The translations under genes were made by a program, and so were the position numbers. From positions 310,001-374,000 of the forward strand of contig JAHLLG010000002.1 of assembly GCA_020444275.1 (NCBI GenBank): a stretch of DNA of 64,000 bases, given 5' to 3'. The notes below the pieces were generated by a model. The model searched no databases. It had not been told where the DNA came from and was given only the letters and a program-made list of their open reading frames with translations. This DNA is from Bacteroidota bacterium. Lineage in GTDB: Bacteria; Bacteroidota; Bacteroidia; Bacteroidales; UBA12077. Shown piece after piece: positions 18,164 through 31,685 of the stretch; position 1 is the first letter of the stretch, and the number at the start of each line of letters is the position of its first letter.

Positions 18164-19627
18164 ATGAAAATAAAATATCTTATAAAGATGAATATAATCT
18201 TATCGATTCTGGTAACCATTAGCGTTATAGCAACTTCGTGTTATAAAGAAGAAATAAATGCAGAAGCTGATGCGATAGTTCCCGGAACAGGTTTAATGGA
18301 TTGGAGCTCTGAAACTCACTCAGGCGAAGCAATACCGAATTATGATATGGTTTTTTCGCAAGATGCTGTAAACAGAATTGATATTGTCATTTCTGCAGAG
18401 AACTGGAAATTCATGTTAGACGATTTAACAGAGAACCTGGGAGAATTTGGTTCAGGTGGAGATTTTCCGCCACCTCCTATGATGAATAGAAGTTTTAATA
18501 AATCTTTTATCCCAGGACCACCTCCGGGAGGTGAGATGGATTTTACTCCGGTATATGCCGAAGTATCAGTATTTTTTAATGATATGGAATGGTATCATGT
18601 TGGAATCCGTTTTAAGGGGAATTCCAGCTTGCGATCAGCCTGGCAGGAAGGAATTATGAAATTGGCCTTCCGCTTTGATTTTGATGAATTTGAAGATGAG
18701 TATCCGGAAATTAAAAATCAGCGTTTTTATGGATTTCAGAAACTTTCGTTTTCTAATAATTTTCATGATGAATCATTCTTGCACGAAAAGGTGGCTGCCG
18801 ATATTTTCAGGGATGCAGGTTTGAAAGCACCACAAACAGCATATTACAGATTATATGTTGATTATGGCGAAGGACCGGTTTATTTTGGCCTCTATACAGC
18901 AGTTGAAATTGTTGAGGATACCATGCTCGAAGATCAATTTGGTAGCGACGATGGGAATTGCTACAAACCAGAAGGTAACGCAGCAACATTTGCGCTTGGA
19001 ACATTTAATGCCGAAGAGTTTGATCTGAAAACCAACGAAGATTATCCCGATTATACTGATCTTGAAACATTATATGACATTTTGCATTCGAATACCAGAA
19101 TAACAAATACAGAAGAGTGGAAATCCGATTTAGAATCGGTATTTGATGTAGATCATTTTATGCATTGGTTGGCTGTAAATACGGTAATTCAAAACTGGGA
19201 TACGTATGGTATAATGAACCATAATTACTACTTATATCATAATCCGTATACCGATAAGCTGGTTTGGATTCCCTGGGATAATAATGAAGCTTTAACTGAT
19301 GAATTAAGAGAAACATTAAGTTTATCGATGATGCAGGTAACCAGCGATTGGCCCTTGATCAGATATTTAATAGATGTTCCGGAATACGAGACTATTTATG
19401 ACGAATATTTAAATTCCACAATTAACGAGGCATTTGAGCCGTCAAAAATGAAAGAGGCTTATTCATATTATCATAACTTGATTTCCGATTATGTAATTGG
19501 TGCAGATGGAGAGCAAATGGGATATACTTTTTTACAATCCGGAGCCAATTTTACAAGTGCATTAACCGAGCAGTATAATCACGTTGATGAAAGGTATAGT
19601 GCAGTTCAGGAATACTTATCAAAATAA
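18164..19627 (+). CDS. CotH kinase family lipoprotein (copy 2)
   Basis: A 487-residue paralogue of the 16094 protein with a lipoprotein signal (SVIATSCYKEE). The central region is nearly identical between the two (FYGFQKLSF, DESFLHEK, YFGLYTAVEIVEDT, LVWIPWDNN), pointing to a fairly recent duplication. It differs by a Pro/Gly-rich insert near residues 102-124 (FPPPPMMNRS and IPGPPPGGEM) where copy 1 has a short acidic loop. The insert could contact a partner or the cell wall. The kinase residues look intact. Gaps of 70 bp before and 28 bp after suggest it remains in the operon. Confidence 0.9.
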   Translation: MKIKYLIKMNIILSILVTISVIATSCYKEEINAEADAIVPGTGLMDWSSETHSGEAIPNYDMVFSQDAVNRIDIVISAENWKFMLDDLTENLGEFGSGGDFPPPPMMNRSFNKSFIPGPPPGGEMDFTPVYAEVSVFFNDMEWYHVGIRFKGNSSLRSAWQEGIMKLAFRFDFDEFEDEYPEIKNQRFYGFQKLSFSNNFHDESFLHEKVAADIFRDAGLKAPQTAYYRLYVDYGEGPVYFGLYTAVEIVEDTMLEDQFGSDDGNCYKPEGNAATFALGTFNAEEFDLKTNEDYPDYTDLETLYDILHSNTRITNTEEWKSDLESVFDVDHFMHWLAVNTVIQNWDTYGIMNHNYYLYHNPYTDKLVWIPWDNNEALTDELRETLSLSMMQVTSDWPLIRYLIDVPEYETIYDEYLNSTINEAFEPSKMKEAYSYYHNLISDYVIGADGEQMGYTFLQSGANFTSALTEQYNHVDERYSAVQEYLSK

Positions 19628-20131: not shown

Positions 20132-21277
20132 ATGCAGTTTAAAGCTACACAAAAAGTACCCGAAAACGCAGTTTATTTAATTATCTGGTTAGTAATTTTT
20201 ATTATGCCGGTATTAATTGCTACCTCTAATACCGGCAGATTAGATAAGCAGGTTTTTGTCGGGTGGGCACGAATGGTCCCATTTGTTCTTATTTTTATCA
20301 TTAATACAGTTTGGTTGCTTCCCGAATTATTATTTAAGGGAAAAACAGGAGCATATCTTTTGGCAGTGGTTGTTCTTAGTTTTTTATTGGTATTGGTTTG
20401 GGAATATATGATGCCAATAATCAGAGAATTTCTAATCAGTGATCAGGTACAACGTCCAAATTTAAGGCCTTTACGTCCCGGCTTGGAACGGCCTGATTTT
20501 GGAAACCAATTGCCTCCCAGACCAAATCAGCGAGTTGCAGGTGATAATTTACCTGTGCGACCCAGAAATCATGTGTTAAGTATCGTAAATCAGATGGTTA
20601 TTGCGTGGTTGGTAGTTGGGTTTAATACTGCATTAAAAGTTACGAATAAGTGGTTTAAAGATGAGCAAAAGAAGAAAGAGTTGGAAAAAGAAAGTTTACG
20701 TTCTGAGCTGGCATTTTTGCAAAATCAGATTAGTCCTCACTTTTTCATGAATACATTGAATAATATTCATGCGCAAATAGATATAGATACAAAACAAGCA
20801 CAAAGCTCCATTGTAACTTTATCTAAAATGATGAGATACTTGTTATACGAATCGGAGAAGGGTAAAACAACACTTAAAAAAGAGATAGAGTTTCTAAAAA
20901 GTTATGTTGATTTAATGAAATTACGTGTTGATGAAGATGTTGATATTGATCTTAATATCAAAATTCAGGATGAGGATATCCGATTACATCCTTTGCTATT
21001 TATTTCCTTTGTTGAAAATGCATTTAAGCATGGAATCAGTTATCATGAAAAATCGTTTATTCAAATAGAACTCAGACAAGATTTGGATTCAATTCTATTT
21101 ACCTGTGAGAATAGTTTATCTGTGCAGAATAAAATAACAAACCCTTATTCCGGGGTTGGGTTAGAAAATATTAAAAAACGACTCAGTTTGTTATATAATA
21201 ACAATTACAAATTAAATATAGCTGAGAAAGAGTCGAGTTTCGAGGTTTACTTAAAAATTCCTGCTCATGCAAATTAA
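20132..21277 (+). CDS. LytS-type sensor histidine kinase
   Basis: A 381-residue inner membrane kinase of the His_kinase (PF06580) class. Hydrophobic segments occur at about 14-32, 47-67 and 72-92, then an Arg/Pro-rich external loop (about 108-148) and another helix near 150-168. The phospho-acceptor His is in FLQNQISPHFFMNTLNNI. The ATP site is FVENAFKHGI with the G box GVGLENIKKRL. The basic Pro-rich loop resembles the tail of the preceding secreted protein and the insert of CotH copy 2. It overlaps the LytTR gene by 11 bp, giving a translationally coupled two-component pair. Confidence 0.92.
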   Translation: MQFKATQKVPENAVYLIIWLVIFIMPVLIATSNTGRLDKQVFVGWARMVPFVLIFIINTVWLLPELLFKGKTGAYLLAVVVLSFLLVLVWEYMMPIIREFLISDQVQRPNLRPLRPGLERPDFGNQLPPRPNQRVAGDNLPVRPRNHVLSIVNQMVIAWLVVGFNTALKVTNKWFKDEQKKKELEKESLRSELAFLQNQISPHFFMNTLNNIHAQIDIDTKQAQSSIVTLSKMMRYLLYESEKGKTTLKKEIEFLKSYVDLMKLRVDEDVDIDLNIKIQDEDIRLHPLLFISFVENAFKHGISYHEKSFIQIELRQDLDSILFTCENSLSVQNKITNPYSGVGLENIKKRLSLLYNNNYKLNIAEKESSFEVYLKIPAHAN

Positions 21278-21983
21278 ATGTATTGCCATAGACGATGAAC
21301 CATTAGCCTTAAAGCAAATTTCAGGCTATATCAGTAAAACACCTTTCTTAGAACTGGTTGCTGGTTGTAAAAGTGCATTTGATGCTATGGTAGTGCTTGA
21401 AAATAATGAGGTTCATTTAATGTTTGTTGATATTCAAATGCCTGATCTTACGGGGATTGATTTTGTAAAATCGTTGAACAAAGAGCAAAAGATCATATTT
21501 ACTACGGCTTACGAAGAATATGCACTGGAAGGGTTTAAGGTTGAGGCGCTAGATTATATTTTAAAACCATTTGGTTACGAAGAGTTTCTAAAATCTGCTA
21601 CTAAAGCAAAAGCACATTTTGAACTACTTGAGAAAGCAGCTACATCAAATCGAGTAAATAATGAAGATTACCTATTTGTTAAAGCTGATTACAAAATCCA
21701 GCGCATTAACTTAACGGATATTGTTTACATTGAAAGCATGCGTGAATATGTGCAAATTGTTTTAAAAGATTCAAAACCGGTCATGACGTTGATGAGCCTT
21801 AAATCGCTGGAAGAGAAATTGCCCAAAAAGCATTTTATGCGGGTTCATCGCTCGTTTATTGTGAACCTAAACAAAATAAAAACAGTTGAGCGTAGTAGAA
21901 TTATTTTTGAAAAGAAGTATGTTCCTGTTAGCGAACAGTATAGGGATCAGTTTCAGGAATTCTTAGGCAAAAGTTTTATTTAA
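21267..21983 (+). CDS. LytTR-family response regulator
   Basis: A 238-residue regulator. The receiver has IDDEPLA, the phospho-acceptor Asp in HLMFVDIQMPDLTG, and the Lys of DYILKPF. The LytTR DNA-binding domain follows at about 140-238 (YIESMREYVQIVL, FMRVHRSFIVNLNKI). It is coupled to the upstream kinase by an 11-bp overlap. It probably regulates the VTC/CotH cluster, since both genes sit at its end, but no pair of LytTR direct repeats could be recognised with confidence. Confidence 0.92.
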   Translation: MQIKCIAIDDEPLALKQISGYISKTPFLELVAGCKSAFDAMVVLENNEVHLMFVDIQMPDLTGIDFVKSLNKEQKIIFTTAYEEYALEGFKVEALDYILKPFGYEEFLKSATKAKAHFELLEKAATSNRVNNEDYLFVKADYKIQRINLTDIVYIESMREYVQIVLKDSKPVMTLMSLKSLEEKLPKKHFMRVHRSFIVNLNKIKTVERSRIIFEKKYVPVSEQYRDQFQEFLGKSFI

Positions 21984-21987
21984 AATG

Positions 21988-22019
21988 TTGCAATTATTGT
22001 AAACATTTTCTACCTTTTG
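21988..22019 (+). promoter_or_regulatory. Candidate promoter of the SiaC-like gene
   Basis: TTG at 21988-21990, a 20-bp spacer and TACCTTTTG at 22011-22019 resemble the -33/-7 pattern with one extra T in the -7 box. It lies 36 bp before the ATG at 22055. Confidence 0.4.
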
Positions 22020-22054
22020 CGTATAGTAGTATTGCAAATTACATACTCTTATTC

Positions 22055-22480
22055 ATGAACTCACTTAAAATTGAAGCAACTACGTTTACTCCTGAAATCA
22101 ATTTCGATATTGAAAGTAATACGCTTAGTTTTCTAAAAGTTTCAAAACCAGCTAATGCAATAACTTTTTATAAACCTGTATTTGATTTTATCGATAGTTT
22201 TGAACAAACGAAAGTAAAGTCAAAGGTGGTAAAAGAATTAGTCATCGATTTTAAGTTTGATTACTTTAATACCGCAACAGCTAAAGTTATTTATGAACTG
22301 CTGGAAAAATTTCACAAAATAGAGAAACAAGGAGTTGGTGTGGTTATCAATTGGTATTATCATCCCGAAGATGATGATTTACTTGAAGAAGGACAAATCA
22401 TGTCGGAGGCATTAGGCCTTAAATTTAATTTTCTCGCTTGTGAAGAGGACGAGCACGAAGATGATGATCAGGAAAACTGA
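22055..22480 (+). CDS. SiaC-like regulatory phosphoprotein (DUF1987)
   Basis: A 141-residue cytoplasmic protein of the DUF1987/SiaC family. The marker is FDYFNTATAKVIYELL (about residues 68-83), the place where the Thr/Ser of SiaC is phosphorylated by SiaB. In Pseudomonas, SiaC is freed by the phosphatase SiaA and activates the cyclase SiaD. The C terminus is a very acidic tail (EEDEHEDDDQEN). No SiaA, SiaB or SiaD gene lies beside it; the next genes are a HAMP sensor and trkH. It may act in trans or control something else. Confidence 0.8.
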   Translation: MNSLKIEATTFTPEINFDIESNTLSFLKVSKPANAITFYKPVFDFIDSFEQTKVKSKVVKELVIDFKFDYFNTATAKVIYELLEKFHKIEKQGVGVVINWYYHPEDDDLLEEGQIMSEALGLKFNFLACEEDEHEDDDQEN

Positions 22481-22520
22481 TCATTTTTATTTACATTACG
22501 TTGTACTTTATTTATTTTTA

Positions 22521-22549
22521 TTGGAAATTAAACTTAAATATTATTTTTG
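22521..22549 (+). promoter_or_regulatory. Promoter of the HAMP-trkH operon
   Basis: TTG (22521-22523), 18-bp spacer and TATTTTTG (22542-22549, an exact TAnnTTTG). Transcription would start near 22555, just before the ATG at 22574. Confidence 0.55.
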
Positions 22550-22573
22550 TGCTCCATTTAATTTCTGGATACT

Positions 22574-23335
22574 ATGAAGATCAAATCAAAAATTTTAGCA
22601 GGTTTCATGCTGTTAATATTTATGCTATTAATAGCAGGAGCTATGTCAATTTATGAATTTTCGCGTATTGGAAATTCAGTTAAAGCATTAATTGATAATA
22701 ATTACAAAACCATTGAAGCTTCAAAAACTATGATTGAAGCTTTAGAACGTGAAGATAGTGGTATTTTGTTACTCATTTCAGGACAGTGGAAAAAGGGACG
22801 TACAATACTTGAATCGGCAGATAGCTCTTTTATTGCAGCTTTTGAGAAAGCACAGAATAATCTTACCGAAGAAAACGAAGAAGATCATATAAATCAAATA
22901 AGAGAAGTGTATGCCAGTTATAAAGCAAAATGGGAACTTCCAATTGTTGGTACATACAAAGAAAATAGCATGGAATGGTACCTGAATGAGGTGCACGATA
23001 ACTTCTTACAGGTTAAGATTGAGGTAGAAGATTTAATGACACTAAATCAAGAGAGTATGTATAAAGAAGCATCTGCCTTAAAACAGCAGTCGCACAGAGC
23101 ACTTATGCCCGGTATTATCGCTATTGTGTCAGCATTAGTATTTTTGATCCTATTTAATTTCTTTATTCGTAGAATTTTCGTTCGCCCAATTCAAAAAATC
23201 ACAGAATCGGTAAAGAATTTTCATCAAAGTTCAGAAGGATTAAAGTCAGATATTACATACCATGATGAGTTCGAGGTTCTTGAGAATGAAATTCAGCAGC
23301 TAATCCAAAGATTAAGAATAAAAAATGAGAACTGA
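22574..23335 (+). CDS. Membrane sensor with HAMP domain, no output domain
   Basis: A 253-residue protein with helices at about 8-28 and 178-198 flanking a helical periplasmic sensor (about 30-175, four-helix type; SKTMIEALEREDSGILLLIS resembles KinB/NarX-like and chemoreceptor sensor bundles). A HAMP domain (RPIQKITESVKNFHQ) and a short coiled coil follow. The protein stops where a kinase or methyl-accepting domain would begin. The stop lies inside the trkH gene, which begins 11 bp upstream of it, so the two are translationally coupled. It may gate or regulate TrkH, or act with a kinase from elsewhere. Confidence 0.8.
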   Translation: MKIKSKILAGFMLLIFMLLIAGAMSIYEFSRIGNSVKALIDNNYKTIEASKTMIEALEREDSGILLLISGQWKKGRTILESADSSFIAAFEKAQNNLTEENEEDHINQIREVYASYKAKWELPIVGTYKENSMEWYLNEVHDNFLQVKIEVEDLMTLNQESMYKEASALKQQSHRALMPGIIAIVSALVFLILFNFFIRRIFVRPIQKITESVKNFHQSSEGLKSDITYHDEFEVLENEIQQLIQRLRIKNEN

Positions 23336-24764
23336 AATAGTTATTAGGCATATAGGGCTGGTACTCATATTTAACGCGATATTTTTATTCATCTCATTCT
23401 TAATATCATTATTTCTGGCCGAATCTTCTGCAGCTTCTTTACTTTACAGTGCATTAGTAGCGCTGGTTTTTGGACTCTTCCCATTAATCTATGTTAAGTC
23501 ATCGGATTATTTAACCATATTGGAAGGAACTTCCATTGTTGTATTTGGATGGCTTACCACTTGTTTAGTTGGTTCGTTACCATACATTTTATGGGGAGGT
23601 GAGTTTTCTGTAATAGATGCCTGGTTCGAAAGTGTTTCCGGGTTTACTACAACCGGTTCTACTATTATTAATGACATCGAAGCGCTTCCCAAGGGATTAC
23701 TGTTCTGGCGTTCTGCTACGCATTGGCTAGGTGGAATAGGAATTATATTATTTACTATTTTAATTCTTCCTGGATCAAATACATCAAAATTGGTTTTGTT
23801 GAATACAGAAATGTCTCCTTTAGCTAAAACAAATTTCAAGTACAGAGCTGTTGAAATTTTGAGAATACTAATTTATGTGTATCTGGGATTGACTGTGCTT
23901 GAAACGGTTCTGCTAAAAGTAGCCGGAATGTCATTTTTTGATGCAGTAAACCATTCTTTTGCAACCATTGCAACGGGAGGTTTTTCAACAAAAAATTTAA
24001 GTATTGCTTCATACAATAGCATATCTATCGAAGTTATCATTATGATATTTATGGTTCTCTCAGGTGTACATTTCGGACTTACATTTAATACGATAACCGG
24101 AAATAAAAAAAATCTATTTAAGTCTTCCATCTTTAAAGCCTATATATCATTTTTATTTATAGGTATTGTACTAGTTGCATTAAAACTTTATTTAAATGGA
24201 ATGTATTCATGGTGGGATTCAGTACGATATGCATCATTTCAGGTCATTTCATTAGGAACCACCACAGGTTTCGCTACTGTTGATACTGCACACTGGCCAA
24301 GTTTTACGATAATCGTTTTAATATATTTTACCATTCAATGTGCCATGATTGGTTCTACTTCTGGAGGATTGAAGTTTGACAGAATTTTTATTTTCTTCAA
24401 ATCTATTTTAAAGCAAATAAAATCGATTCAGCACCCTAGGGCAGTTCTCTCTTTAAAAATTGATGGAAATCCTATTAATGAGAAGACCGAATTGCATACG
24501 ATGATATTTATAATCCTGTATTTAGGTATAATACTTATTACAACGTTATTATTAACCTTTTTGAATATTGATACCTTAACAGCTTTCTCGGGTTCTGCAG
24601 CTACTATAGGAAATGTTGGACCTGGATTTGCGCATGTTAGTTCGCTGGGTAATTATAGCGATTTACCAAACCTGGGTAAACTTATATTAAGTATCAATAT
24701 GATTTTAGGACGATTAGAAATATTCGGAATTATTTCGTTACTATTTATTAAATCGTGGAAATAA
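23325..24764 (+). CDS. trkH: TrkH-family potassium uptake protein
   Basis: A 479-residue membrane protein with the four pore repeats of Trk/Ktr/HKT subunits. Selectivity-filter stretches include SGFTTTGST (about residue 105), HSFATIATGGFST (about 212), SLGTTTGFATV (about 310) and SAATIGNVGPGF (about 424), each with the central Gly. It passes potassium across the inner membrane, usually with a cytoplasmic TrkA-type RCK subunit, and none is encoded nearby. Start ATG 23325 overlaps the HAMP gene by 11 bp. No good terminator follows, and the next genes run the other way. Confidence 0.93.
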   Translation: MRTEIVIRHIGLVLIFNAIFLFISFLISLFLAESSAASLLYSALVALVFGLFPLIYVKSSDYLTILEGTSIVVFGWLTTCLVGSLPYILWGGEFSVIDAWFESVSGFTTTGSTIINDIEALPKGLLFWRSATHWLGGIGIILFTILILPGSNTSKLVLLNTEMSPLAKTNFKYRAVEILRILIYVYLGLTVLETVLLKVAGMSFFDAVNHSFATIATGGFSTKNLSIASYNSISIEVIIMIFMVLSGVHFGLTFNTITGNKKNLFKSSIFKAYISFLFIGIVLVALKLYLNGMYSWWDSVRYASFQVISLGTTTGFATVDTAHWPSFTIIVLIYFTIQCAMIGSTSGGLKFDRIFIFFKSILKQIKSIQHPRAVLSLKIDGNPINEKTELHTMIFIILYLGIILITTLLLTFLNIDTLTAFSGSAATIGNVGPGFAHVSSLGNYSDLPNLGKLILSINMILGRLEIFGIISLLFIKSWK

Positions 24765-24834
24765 CTAGAATAAACGATATTAGAAGAGATCTCAAAACCT
24801 TCATGCGTTTGTAATTTATCATTTAGATTAGCAT

Positions 24835-25209
24835 TTACTTCTTGTTCCGTAGCATCAAAACAGAAAAGATTGCCAAAAGTAATGATGCAAAAAATATTGA
24901 AGACCCGGAGGTGAATATCCAAAACCAGTCTATAGTTACTTTTTGCCATAAAATATCCCAAATTGAAGTAATCATTGGGAATCGTAATCCGGTAAAGACC
25001 AGTAATAGCAGATCGATTACAAATGCCGGGATCATTATGGCTGCTCCAATCATTAAAATAAGTACAATAACTAGTATTTGAATTATGGCAAATAATGATC
25101 CCGGAAGTGAGATATACGTAAAGCTATCTCCTGATATCTTTCCCGAAACAAGTCCTATCAGTATAAACAGAATAGAAACGATAAATAAGAAAATAAGATA
25201 CTTTTTCAT
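24835..25209 (-). CDS. Small membrane protein, function unknown
   Basis: A 124-residue protein with three strong hydrophobic segments (about 5-22, 40-72 in two parts, and 97-118), short loops and a basic C terminus (LMLRNKK). I do not recognise a family. It is the last gene of a leftward unit that starts with the STAS/SpoIIAA-like gene at 26122, with 17 bp between it and the preceding gene. Its converging neighbour is trkH. Confidence 0.6.
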   Translation of the reverse strand: MKKYLIFLFIVSILFILIGLVSGKISGDSFTYISLPGSLFAIIQILVIVLILMIGAAIMIPAFVIDLLLLVFTGLRFPMITSIWDILWQKVTIDWFWIFTSGSSIFFASLLLAIFSVLMLRNKK

Positions 25210-25226
25210 AGCTATTAAGTTTTAGA

Positions 25227-25682
25227 TTAATCGCATTTATCTGATTCATGAGCCGGTTCAAGTCTCAGCTTTAGGCCGGTTTCGCAGTATTCACCGGTTT
25301 CAATATTTAGTTTTTCAATTTCCCAGATAAAACTCCGGTCGTTAATCTCCTCTAAGGTTTTAATATCTGATTCGAAAACCAAGTCCCATCTTTTCCCTTT
25401 TATGGTTTGGCCGGGTTTTAAGCAATATTCCTTATAACCACTTTTTGAATGTGTCATACCATTTAAAAAATAGAAAAGCTCAAAACTTACCTTTTTTCTT
25501 TCTATTCCGTAATTAGTTATTTTAACATACATTACATAAGGACTATCCTTTTTCAATAGATTCTTTTTTCTCCATTTGTATTCGAATTTTACATCATCTT
25601 TCGATATAAAATCAACATATTCTTGTGCATTTATGAATAATGGCATAAAGAATAAGGTTGTTAGTATAATTATATATTTCAT
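25227..25682 (-). CDS. Secreted protein of unknown function
   Basis: A 151-residue protein with a signal peptide (FFMPLFINAQEYV). The mature part is beta-rich (YVMYVKITNYGIERKKVSFELFYFLNG, GQTIKGKRWDLVFES) with two Cys near 98 and 132 that could pair. The fold resembles a small Ig-like periplasmic module, but no family is recognised. It lies 32 bp after the STAS-like gene and 17 bp before the membrane protein. Confidence 0.55.
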   Translation of the reverse strand: MKYIIILTTLFFMPLFINAQEYVDFISKDDVKFEYKWRKKNLLKKDSPYVMYVKITNYGIERKKVSFELFYFLNGMTHSKSGYKEYCLKPGQTIKGKRWDLVFESDIKTLEEINDRSFIWEIEKLNIETGEYCETGLKLRLEPAHESDKCD

Positions 25683-27891: not shown

Positions 27892-29247
27892 TTATTCTTG
27901 TTCTTTTGTTTCTTTTAACATACGATAAATTGTAGCTGTTCCAATATCAAGTTTTCTGGCAACCAACCTTACATCATTATTATATTTCTGTAAAAATGAC
28001 GATACAATCTTTCTTTCGTATTCTCTTAGGGTGAGTTCTTTATCGTTATCGCTATCAATAATTTCTTCGCTATTGAATAAGATGTCCTGATCGCTAATTT
28101 CGTTATTATCGCTCAACGTTACCGCAAGTTCAATTACTGATTTTAGTTCCCTGATATTACCGGGGAAGGTATATTTTTTGATTTTGTTTCGCGCTGCATG
28201 TGAAAGCTTTTTTTCCGGCAGGTTATTTTCTTCACAAAACGATTGAATGAAATGCTTGGCAAGAATTAATACATCATTATCTCTGTCTCTTAAAGGAGGC
28301 AACTCAATTGGTAATCCAATTAAACGATAATAAAGATCTTGCCTAAAACTACCATGCTTAACTTCCTGAACCAGGTTTTTATGTGTAGCTGTAATAATCC
28401 GGCAATTTACTTTAATTGTTTTATTACTGCCTATTCGGGTAATTTCTTTTTCCTGAAGCGTTCTAAGTAATTTTGCCTGAAATGCAATGTCCATCTCACC
28501 AATTTCGTCTAAAAAAAGCGTGCCTCCGTCGGCTTCTTCAAATTTACCTTTACGTTGAAATGAAGCACCTGTAAAAGCACCTTTTTCGTGTCCAAAAAGC
28601 TCACTTTCTACTAATTCTGAGGGAATAGCAGAAACATTAACCGCAACAAAAGGATTAGATTTACGATTGGAATTATAATGAATTGCCTTGGCTACAAGCT
28701 CTTTTCCTGTTCCTGTTTCGCCATAAATAGAAACATTAATATTTGTGGTTAACGCTTTATTAATTAGATCGTGTATTTTTTTTATGGCTTCACTTTCACC
28801 TATAATTGAACTGCTATAGCTGTATTTTTTCTGAACTTCTTTTTTTAATTCAGTAATTTCATTTTTTAACCCGACATTTTTTTGGATATTTAAAATGGTA
28901 TTATGAAGCCGTTCCTTAATATCATTAGATTTAACAATATAATCGTAGGCACCTTCCTTTAAAAGATCTACAACAACATCAATATCATCTTGTTCTGAAA
29001 TAAGAATAACCTGCGATTCGTAACTATGTTGTTTAATCCTCTTAAGAACTTCCATTCCGCTGATATCGGGCAGCTTAAAATCTAAGGTTATAATGTCGGG
29101 GTTTTGATCCAGATTATTTATACAATCCCAGCCATTTAAGTAGCTAATGACTTCAAAATCAGGATTCAAAGAAAGATTATGTACAATTAATTTATTATAC
29201 CATTCATTATCTTCGACAACAAAAATTTTGAGAGATTTGTTATTCAT
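27892..29247 (-). CDS. Sigma-54-dependent response regulator (NtrC family)
   Basis: A 451-residue regulator with receiver (Asp56 in IITLDFKLPD), AAA+ domain and Fis-type HTH. The AAA+ region has Walker A GETGTGKE, intact GAFTGA, and Walker B GGTLFLDEIGE. The C terminus carries the HTH YNNDVRLVARKLDIGTATIYRMLKE. It follows a hybrid kinase by 35 bp and precedes the coiled-coil gene that has a sigma-54-like promoter and ATCA-N3-TGAT repeats. It likely receives phosphate from that kinase and activates the envelope genes. Unlike the left-edge regulator it keeps the canonical loop. Confidence 0.94.
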   Translation of the reverse strand: MNNKSLKIFVVEDNEWYNKLIVHNLSLNPDFEVISYLNGWDCINNLDQNPDIITLDFKLPDISGMEVLKRIKQHSYESQVILISEQDDIDVVVDLLKEGAYDYIVKSNDIKERLHNTILNIQKNVGLKNEITELKKEVQKKYSYSSSIIGESEAIKKIHDLINKALTTNINVSIYGETGTGKELVAKAIHYNSNRKSNPFVAVNVSAIPSELVESELFGHEKGAFTGASFQRKGKFEEADGGTLFLDEIGEMDIAFQAKLLRTLQEKEITRIGSNKTIKVNCRIITATHKNLVQEVKHGSFRQDLYYRLIGLPIELPPLRDRDNDVLILAKHFIQSFCEENNLPEKKLSHAARNKIKKYTFPGNIRELKSVIELAVTLSDNNEISDQDILFNSEEIIDSDNDKELTLREYERKIVSSFLQKYNNDVRLVARKLDIGTATIYRMLKETKEQE

Positions 29248-29282: not shown

Positions 29283-31685
29283 TTATTTTGATTGTTTTGT
29301 TAATTCCTGAAATTGATTCTGAAGGCTTTTCATAGCAATAGTTGTTACTTCTTCAGCTTCTTGTATTAACTCCAAAATTAAGGTTTTATTTTCATTTAAC
29401 GCATTTTCTTCAATGATCTTAAGTGCTTTTACCAATTTTTTAACGCCTAAATGTCTGCTGGAAGGTACTAATTTGTGCGCCAAATCGGAAACCATCTCAT
29501 ACTGTTCATTTTCTAAAGCTATTTTAATTTCTTTTAATCCTTTTTCGGTTGATATTTTAAATTGCTGAATCATTTCTTGTACAAAATCTAAATCATTTCC
29601 TGCAACTCTAACCAGATTTGTTAAATCGGCTTCATAACTCTTTTCGTTCTGATTATTTTTATATGTATCGGATAGACTCTCTAAATTCGGATCTAGCTCA
29701 GCTTTAAATAACTGGTATATTTGATCTTCGGAAAAAGGCTTTGTTAAAATATGATTAAACAGAGCTTTAACTTCTGGTGTAAGGTTATCAGCAGTGTCGG
29801 CAGTTATACCTATTACTTTGGTTTCTTTATTAGATAATTGTAAACTTTCGCGAATAAGTTTAGTAGCCATTACACCGTTTATAATCGGCATTCTAATATC
29901 CATAAGAATGAAATCATACTTGTTTTTTTGCTTCAAAAGTTCAATAGCTTCTAATCCGTTATTTGCAATGTCGTATTTGATATTCCATCTATCTAATATA
30001 CTACTTATCAGTAACCGGTTGTACTCTTCATCATCAGCAATTAAAACATTGAAATTATCAGGAAAGTTATGTGGAGTAGAATCGGTCTTTAGTACTTCAA
30101 TTTTTTCCTTCTCGCCAGGTTCAAATCTGAGCATACAAACGGCCTTAGTGCCTGATCCTTTTCTGCTTTCCAGCCTAATATCTCCGTTAAAGAGCTCTAC
30201 TATTTTTTTTACTATGGTCAATCCCAGTCCTGTGCCTTCATATCTGGTTGCAATATTTTGATCTTCCTGTGTATATTCCTGGAATACATCTTCCAGTTTG
30301 GAAGGATCTATGCCTAATCCATTATCTTTTACAATTAATTCAACAAGTACAGTATTTTTATTTTCCGTTTTAATATTTGCTAATACTTCGATAGTTCCTT
30401 GCTCGGTAAATTTTACAGCATTACTTAAAAGATTATATAAAATCTGTTGAAACCTATTAACATCGCCAAAAAGAACAAGGTTTTCTTCGTTTTTTATGGT
30501 ATAAGTAATAACATTTTCATTATTCTTAGCTAATTCAAAAAATAAGTTGCATACATTTTTGATCAAATGCTCAGGATTAAAATGCGTTTTATGCAGAACA
30601 AGTTTATCAGACTGAAGCTTAGTAAAATCAAGCACATCATTAATTAATCGGATTAACTGATCGCTGGCTGCGTTTACTATTTCGATTTTATCTCTGAGTT
30701 TAACATCCAAAGGTTCGTTAAGTATTTGTTTAATGAAACCTGAAATAGCATTCAATGGTGTTCTTATTTCGTGACTAACTTTTGCCATAAATAACTCTTT
30801 TGATTTAGCAAGCTTTTCGGCATCTATTCTTGAGCTAATCAATATATCATTGTATTGTTTGTTTTTTCTAATGTATTTTATTATTACGATTAATACAACC
30901 AATGAAAGGAGTACCCCGAAAAGCGAAAAGAACGTTAAGCGGTTATATGCAATGTTTGCTAATTTTTCAGCATTATTATAGTGATTTATTTCTTTTTGCC
31001 TTTCGTAATTTTCTAATTGTTCCATTAGTGATGTAAACGCTTCGTTTATCTTATTGCTTGACTCAGTCAGTTCTGATTCCTTTTGCAGTAGTTTATGCTC
31101 TATGACCTTCTCGCCTTGTTCTATCTTATTTAATTCATCCAGGATTTTTTCGTTGTCGATCTTTTTCTCTTCAATTTTATTTGAGCCAAATATTCGTTGG
31201 AATAGATTTTTATCTTTATCAAGAGTATCTTTATTCGTTTGTAGCTGTGTTGTAAGGTATGTAAATACTTTATCGGTAGTGTCGGTTTGCCATAGCCAGA
31301 TCATTTCATCCCAAAGCTGCAATCTACTTTCTAGTAACTGATTAATGGTATCTAATTTGGCTGAAAACCATTCGTCGTGTGGATAATGTTCATTCAGTAA
31401 TTTAAAACTTGAATCGATAGCTGTAATATGGTTTCTGTGTTTTTTTAAATAACTTCTTTGCTTTGTTAATCCATATAATCTTATATTATTTTCAGCTTGT
31501 TCAATAGATGTTGTGATATTTTTAATTGTAATAAATCCATATTGGGGAGTGTTTTCCTCATACATTAACTTTACTACTGAAGATAAACTTCTGTAAGAAA
31601 AATATCCTCCTACCAGTATTACTATTACACCTATTGTTAATAGTAATCCTATTTTTACTGAAATGGATATTTTTGTTTTAAGCAT
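29283..31685 (-). CDS. Hybrid sensor histidine kinase with receiver and HPt domains
   Basis: An 800-residue inner membrane phosphorelay protein. It has two helices (about 12-32 and 250-272) around a helical periplasmic sensor of 215 residues. The HisKA domain carries His305 (KVSHEIRTP), then HATPase (NLLSNAVKFTEQG, VKDNGLGIDPS, GTGLGLTIVKK). A receiver near 545-665 has VLIADDEEYN and FILMDIRMP, and a C-terminal HPt has the His in SDLAHKLVPSSRHLG. The full relay can pass phosphate to the downstream sigma-54 regulator. The 7-bp gap from the receiver gene at 31692 shows an operon. Confidence 0.94.
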   Translation of the reverse strand: MLKTKISISVKIGLLLTIGVIVILVGGYFSYRSLSSVVKLMYEENTPQYGFITIKNITTSIEQAENNIRLYGLTKQRSYLKKHRNHITAIDSSFKLLNEHYPHDEWFSAKLDTINQLLESRLQLWDEMIWLWQTDTTDKVFTYLTTQLQTNKDTLDKDKNLFQRIFGSNKIEEKKIDNEKILDELNKIEQGEKVIEHKLLQKESELTESSNKINEAFTSLMEQLENYERQKEINHYNNAEKLANIAYNRLTFFSLFGVLLSLVVLIVIIKYIRKNKQYNDILISSRIDAEKLAKSKELFMAKVSHEIRTPLNAISGFIKQILNEPLDVKLRDKIEIVNAASDQLIRLINDVLDFTKLQSDKLVLHKTHFNPEHLIKNVCNLFFELAKNNENVITYTIKNEENLVLFGDVNRFQQILYNLLSNAVKFTEQGTIEVLANIKTENKNTVLVELIVKDNGLGIDPSKLEDVFQEYTQEDQNIATRYEGTGLGLTIVKKIVELFNGDIRLESRKGSGTKAVCMLRFEPGEKEKIEVLKTDSTPHNFPDNFNVLIADDEEYNRLLISSILDRWNIKYDIANNGLEAIELLKQKNKYDFILMDIRMPIINGVMATKLIRESLQLSNKETKVIGITADTADNLTPEVKALFNHILTKPFSEDQIYQLFKAELDPNLESLSDTYKNNQNEKSYEADLTNLVRVAGNDLDFVQEMIQQFKISTEKGLKEIKIALENEQYEMVSDLAHKLVPSSRHLGVKKLVKALKIIEENALNENKTLILELIQEAEEVTTIAMKSLQNQFQELTKQSK

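Follow-up and report, generated by a model that had tools for sequence, protein, structure and literature searches.

HAMP domains drive kinases, cyclases and chemoreceptor tips. The locus described here raises the question of what such a domain would drive in a protein that ends directly after it, and whose gene runs into trkH, the gene for a K+ channel/transporter subunit. The DNA is from a Bacteroidota bacterium (UBA12077; assembly GCA_020444275.1, contig JAHLLG010000002.1, positions 310,001-374,000 of the forward strand), and this stretch of 64,000 nt is the window to which the coordinates below refer.

The overlapping sensor and trkH genes

The orphan sensor gene (22574..23335, + strand) is an open reading frame that starts with ATG and encodes 253 residues, arranged as a first transmembrane helix (TM1), a periplasmic four-helix bundle (4HB), a second transmembrane helix (TM2) and a HAMP domain, after which the protein stops. 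Residues 1-161, which include TM1 (22574..23056, +), match the Pfam family 4HB_MCP_1 with 31.9 bits against a cut-off of 27. TM2, at about residues 178-200 (23105..23173, +; helix limits read from the sequence), starts at P179-G180, a feature specific to the orphan sensors: P179 is found in 95% and G180 in 89% of 64 orphan homologs, and they are not the consensus in related kinases. The probable HAMP domain, residues 197-248 (23162..23317, +), lies directly before the stop codon. Its match of 14.5 bits is under the Pfam cut-off of 25, and the assignment is supported because the signature residues P205, D231, E232 and L236 are 97-100% conserved in the 64 homologs. The match of the sensor to the Pfam family KinB_sensor (15.5 bits) is also under its cut-off of 27, the NCBIfam search gives no match, and a PDB sequence search with the sensor profile gives weak matches only (E 0.08-0.09). 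Pfam detects no kinase or other output domain in the 253 residues, HisKA and HATPase being absent, and no MCPsignal cytoplasmic domain. The trkH gene begins ahead of the sensor stop codon.

The trkH gene (23325..24764, +) also starts with ATG and encodes 479 residues that match TrkH (PF02386) with 186.9 bits against a cut-off of 27; in the tree the protein belongs to the sensor-linked clade described below. The start of trkH and the stop of the sensor gene overlap by 11 bp (23325..23335, +). The open reading frames and Pfam matches thus bear out the sequence-only reading, which had described an orphan HAMP sensor without an output domain overlapping trkH by this length. A special role for the 11-bp overlap was rejected, since the distance between the two genes in relatives ranges from -80 to +165 nt and a 4-bp overlap (-4) is the commonest arrangement.

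The gene directly upstream of the sensor encodes a SiaC-family regulatory phosphoprotein (22055..22480, +; PF09345, 101.7 bits). Upstream of it are a LytTR response regulator (21267..21983) and a His_kinase-family sensor (20132..21277), which follow a small ORF and a 487-residue ORF (18164..19627, +) that reads like a CotH-type protein. Elsewhere in the window, Pfam identifies a CHASE3 hybrid histidine kinase, with a receiver and weak Hpt matches (29283..31685, -), and the adjoining gene resembles an NtrC-type sigma-54 regulator in its sequence (27892..29247, -). A terminator-like hairpin of nine pairs followed by a T-rich tail (22463..22485, +), located by a pattern scan, overlaps the end of the SiaC gene and would make sensor and trkH a separate transcription unit; the scan finds five terminator-like sites in 22400..24950, where 1.3 are expected. 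A Bacteroidota-type promoter upstream of the sensor, TAnnTTTG at 22542, was dropped, as the window holds 83 such sites against 103.8 expected from shuffles. The two-part Bacteroidota promoter motif was rejected as well (2 found, 5.6 expected), and the sigma-70 scan is at chance (12 found, 12.5 expected). Rfam has no match in 21900..25300, so a known riboswitch is absent there.

Conservation and co-divergence of the gene pair

All testable Bacteroidota loci whose TrkH scores at least 511 bits, 60 in number, have a gene for a short sensor of about 250 residues immediately before that of TrkH in the same orientation, and an RCK gene adjoins the TrkH at none of them. Among 31 lower-scoring TrkH-like matches, by comparison, full-length trkA is adjacent in 20. 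The pair that the sequence-only reading had proposed to look for in other Bacteroidota is therefore present in many genomes of the phylum, so that neither a chance pairing nor a linkage confined to the genome of the window can be maintained. The existence and linkage of a conserved gene pair are near certain.

The sensor profile (A1, built from 10 rows) detects the short sensor in 37 of 295 genomes of the order. In a phylum-wide sample it finds 7 carriers among 395 genomes, and in one family labelled with the same phylum and a different class 20 of 79 genomes carry the short sensor; within the family of the window's own genome, the sensor is detected in 9 of 25. Conversely, a TrkH profile (A2) yields 38 matches of at least 511 bits in 37 of the 295 order genomes, the next scores being no higher than 437 bits, and these are the same 37 genomes that have the sensor. 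In a 38th order genome (G620), the short sensor is related but falls into another group. The TrkH at L209, which belongs to the sensor-linked clade described below, is cut at the start of its contig and no sensor is found in its genome, which makes it a possible exception. The pair has no third conserved gene at 45 loci; the best candidate, sigma-factor-like as its sequence reads, occurs at 12 of them.

The sensor-linked TrkHs form a single clade, the 60 together with the contig-cut one (FastTree support 0.89). The TrkHs adjacent to trkA group separately (0.96), and three TrkHs beside 4HB kinases make up a third group (0.99). The 64 orphan sensors, too, split from the kinases, in a midpoint-rooted tree whose root is arbitrary and where support is 0.12 on the orphan side and 1.0 on the kinase side. 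Across 26 genomes, the pairwise distances correlate best between sensor and TrkH (r 0.77), with lower values for sensor and TrkA (0.58) and for TrkH and TrkA (0.62). The partial correlation of sensor and TrkH given TrkA is 0.65, a value reached in 0 of 2000 permutations. A functional coupling of the two proteins is likely, even though linkage and co-divergence are also compatible with a co-inherited operon whose products make no contact.

The short sensor of L121 (in genome G560) nests among the kinases, and the TrkH that follows it belongs to the third group. A kinase-less sensor beside TrkH may thus have arisen at least twice, with L121 as the possible second origin. This locus (G560:C116) is a run of K+ uptake genes in which an NtrC-like regulator, a 4HB kinase, the short kinase-less sensor and TrkH are followed by a KtrB-like protein of 605 residues and KtrA.

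TrkA and the positions of its contact sites in the sensor-linked TrkH

The sequence-only reading found no trkA near the pair, and this holds within the window, where there is no TrkA_N match (C9:310001-374000). The absence of trkA that it implied does not hold, since trkA and trkH lie together on another contig of the window's genome and TrkA is encoded in each of the 41 pair-bearing genomes searched; a genome lacking TrkA was accordingly rejected as an explanation. In seven of the 41 (G442, G647, G626, G528, G449, G426 and G643), the sensor-linked TrkH is the sole PF02386 match detected. Because TrkA is present throughout, also where this TrkH stands alone, it probably serves the sensor-linked TrkH in trans, and we infer that the sensor is most likely an addition to TrkA and not a replacement for it. 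In 15 of 26 genomes, trkA lacks a canonical trkH as its neighbour, and several of the solitary trkA genes keep a neighbour that reads as ComEC-like, as in the window's genome. E. coli likewise has two proteins of the TrkH type, TrkG and TrkH (PMC9898762). Both of them use the same TrkA; to our knowledge, no HAMP sensor gene goes with either.

The selectivity-filter glycines G111, G218, G219, G315 and G432 are invariant in the 60 sensor-linked TrkHs, so that all four filter segments are present. The fold, the filters and the HN2 motif are shared with TrkH of Vibrio parahaemolyticus (PDB 4j9u and 6v4k), which is regulated by cytosolic TrkA through two sites, HN1 and HN2 (PMC6987127). There, T175 and R177 in HN1 and H377 and R379 in HN2 contact TrkA; HN1 keeps the channel closed with ADP, and the T175A substitution changes the response to ADP (PMC6987127). 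The sensor-linked TrkHs differ from this system in having a co-encoded membrane sensor, a trkA gene located elsewhere and no proline in HN1.

The two TrkA contact sites have fared differently in the clade. At the HN1 closing-contact position, the aligned residues 172-175 (23838..23849, +) read KYRA and are rewritten: proline at position 173 occurs in 0 of 60 sensor-linked TrkHs versus 20 of 20 TrkHs adjacent to trkA, and the closing-contact motif [TH]-P-R-I/V is accordingly missing from the sensor-linked proteins. The HN2 docking motif, HPRAV at residues 370-374 (24432..24446, +), is retained. Pro371 is present in 60 of 60 sensor-linked TrkHs and His370 in 56, the histidine being absent from the other four, and all 20 trkA-adjacent TrkHs have His-Pro. 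The gating loop after the third filter, residues 336-353 (24330..24383, +), carries residues specific to the clade, namely Q338 (58 of 60), C339 (54 of 60) and D352 (59 of 60), while position 339 is Gly in 20 of 20 trkA-adjacent TrkHs. As read from the alignment, the changes in HN1 and in the gating loop are compatible with altered gating, which falls short of proving that the sensor has taken it over; the loss of HN1 could alternatively reflect a weaker dependence on TrkA and not control by the sensor.

The sensor as a probable subunit of the channel

The kinases related to the sensor give an indication of what its periplasmic domain may sense. Among 20 regions around related full-length kinases (L161-L180, hand-picked from the profile match list and not random), K+ uptake genes lie within about 5.5 kb in 14. 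These are KimA-like genes in L161, L163, L164 and L177 (the L161 protein matches KimA, 6s3k, with E 3.6e-66), kdpABC with a KdpD-like gene in L162, L164, L169, L171, L172 and L180, and Ktr or Trk genes in L168, L173, L178, L179 and, more weakly, L174. The L170 kinase sits on a contig of 3.7 kb, and the five regions without K+ genes (L165, L166, L167, L175 and L176) all belong to one separate kinase clade; eight related kinases form a clade in which no adjacent K+ gene was found, several of them having flanks of 1.5 kb only. KimA is beside the kinase at 17 of the 23 loci L030-L052 with 1.5-kb flanks, some of which are the same genes as in other regions. Since the kinases are mostly found beside KimA, Kdp, Ktr or Trk, the sensor domain is, by its neighbourhoods, assigned to a K+-uptake-associated sensor family, and the signal that it would sense is deduced from these kinase relatives.

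Several of these regions have features of their own. In L169, L171, L172, L162, L164 and L180, kdpABC is accompanied by a KdpD-like protein that is short, at about 380 to 580 residues where uncut, and by a separate 4HB-HAMP kinase; such runs give the impression of a KdpD divided into two proteins in Bacteroidota. The kinases of L166, L167, L175 and L176 adjoin NtrC-type regulators and, as their sequences read, a cluster of ExbB/ExbD/TonB-like and periplasmic proteins; K+ genes were not found in these four regions. L207 (G006:C24) and L206 (G628:C8) carry a tandem of two divergent TrkH-like genes, next to genes for a membrane protein and for a response regulator; the latter two may represent another KdpDE-like system.

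Known systems share parts of this arrangement. KdpD is a membrane sensor of K+ status encoded beside a K+ uptake system and is a kinase that acts through kdp transcription; unlike it, the conserved sensor-trkH pair includes neither a kinase nor a regulator. The Bacteroidota 4HB HAMP kinases, KinB-like in architecture, have the same 4HB-TM-HAMP front end and K+ uptake neighbourhood, but their output is a kinase and an NtrC-type regulator is often encoded nearby, whereas the orphan sensor ends after HAMP and groups apart from them. In the NtrYX/PlrSR-trkAH clusters of Proteobacteria, a HAMP-containing sensor gene adjoins trk genes, as here (PMC13001219). These are full kinase-regulator systems without an orphan sensor, and in the same paper no more than roughly one in four of the close NtrYX/PlrSR homologs has trkA or trkH as a neighbour. 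KtrAB, like the proposed complex of sensor and TrkH, combines a superfamily K+ channel with a regulatory subunit, which in that case is the cytosolic RCK protein KtrA (PMC12059179). No description of the sensor-TrkH pair was found in the open-access literature, subscription papers being mostly outside this coverage.

AlphaFold2 was applied to the L090 readthrough fusion, which consists of the sensor, a 56-residue junk linker and TrkH, with an alignment of 117 rows. The model has a pLDDT of 88.1 and a pTM of 0.85, values obtained for a single fused chain joined by an artificial linker, whereas each protein is expected to form a dimer; confidence falls below 50 only in the linker and in a short TrkH loop. 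By our own arithmetic, pTM would be about 0.6 if the placement were unknown, so the model is sure of where sensor and TrkH lie relative to each other, and a physical contact between them is a computed suggestion. A control fusion of the L007 exchanger-like gene and the sensor gives a pLDDT of 63 and a pTM of 0.46, with a shallow alignment of 20 rows, four of which are the query; this model is poor throughout and provides no yardstick for the value of 0.85. The L090 sensor is modelled as long helices, as expected for TM1, the bundle, TM2 and HAMP. Its residues from about 36 to 174 superpose on the chemoreceptor ligand-binding domain 7wrm (VIA-align Z 14.9, rmsd 2.4, 136 residues aligned) and on KinB 4llc (Z 14.3, rmsd 2.2, 124 aligned). 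Over its full length, the sensor superposes on the chemoreceptor model 9a65 (Z 13.3, rmsd 6.4, 252 aligned), although the tool warns that such Z scores alone are no proof for helical bundles. The TrkH part superposes on TrkH 6v4k (Z 46.2, rmsd 2.3, 454 aligned).

Taken as a whole, the pair is most likely a Trk channel with an added sensor subunit. This reading draws on the linkage, the TrkH clade, the co-divergence, the lack of a third gene and the K+-linked kinases, and further on the presence of TrkA everywhere, the residues of HN1, HN2 and the gating loop, and the AlphaFold2 fusion. We regard it as fairly probable that the two genes encode a two-subunit complex in which a kinase-less sensor signals directly to TrkH, with TrkA continuing to serve that TrkH in trans; the direct action of the sensor on the channel, as proposed in the sequence-only reading, is plausible. 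TrkH would be the K+-conducting subunit of this membrane complex and the upstream protein its dedicated kinase-less input subunit. The periplasmic four-helix bundle would read an extracytoplasmic condition tied to the need for K+, such as external K+, ionic strength or osmotic state, and TM2 and HAMP would relay the change straight to the cytosolic side of TrkH and not to a kinase. TrkA encoded elsewhere would dock on TrkH through HN2 and bring in the nucleotide (ATP/ADP) input. With HN1, by which ADP-bound TrkA closes an ordinary TrkH, rewritten, part of the closing or opening control would probably have moved to the sensor. A more specific proposal is put forward tentatively, as possible and not as probable: the sensor would be a HAMP transducer with an ion channel as its output, binding TrkH directly, taking over the closing or opening function of the lost HN1 contact and gating K+ flux in real time in response to an extracytoplasmic signal, with TrkA as a second, nucleotide-driven input.

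Strict linkage and co-divergence would also fit with a sensor-like subunit whose role in this TrkH clade is structural or in assembly, serving stability, membrane insertion or a dimer lock without any signalling, and the weak Pfam match of HAMP (14.5 bits, cut-off 25) and the absence of an output domain are in line with such a role. A complete 4HB ligand-domain fold and a HAMP signature conserved at 97-100% exceed the needs of a scaffold, however, and the kinase relatives are K+-linked sensors, which makes this explanation unlikely. The sensor might also work with another partner, pairing in trans for example with a 4HB histidine kinase of full length, and have only its expression coupled to trkH. 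Related kinases do occur in the phylum, and in L121 a full kinase is encoded just upstream of the short sensor and TrkH. The two-way linkage is nevertheless with TrkH only, and searching the window's genome with the sensor profile at 1e-5 brings up no further match among the 9 of 15 candidates that were scored, so that such a partner is quite improbable. A sensor that fully replaces TrkA as the gate of TrkH, as the sequence-only reading implied, would account for the lost HN1 contact and for the lack of an adjacent RCK gene at all 60 loci, but it is very hard to reconcile with TrkA in 41 of 41 genomes, including the seven where no other TrkH-family protein was detected, and with an HN2 docking motif kept in 56 of 60. 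Finally, although the first 250 residues share the domain order of the related kinases, a histidine kinase remnant left by a frameshift or stop in an accidental arrangement can practically be dismissed: the 64 homologs are mostly about 250 residues long, stop after HAMP, have TrkH next and group apart from the kinases, and this conserved length refutes a decayed kinase and rules out the frameshift that the sequence-only reading had named as a counter-explanation.

If the preferred reading of a sensor subunit acting directly on TrkH is true, a HAMP domain that drives an ion channel would extend the range of this module, and K+ uptake would be adjustable without transcription. The sensor-linked TrkH offers a natural variant with one of its two contacts to TrkA rewritten. 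The association with KimA, Kdp, Ktr and Trk marks the 4HB domain as a K+-uptake-associated sensor across these systems, and what such domains sense thereby becomes testable.
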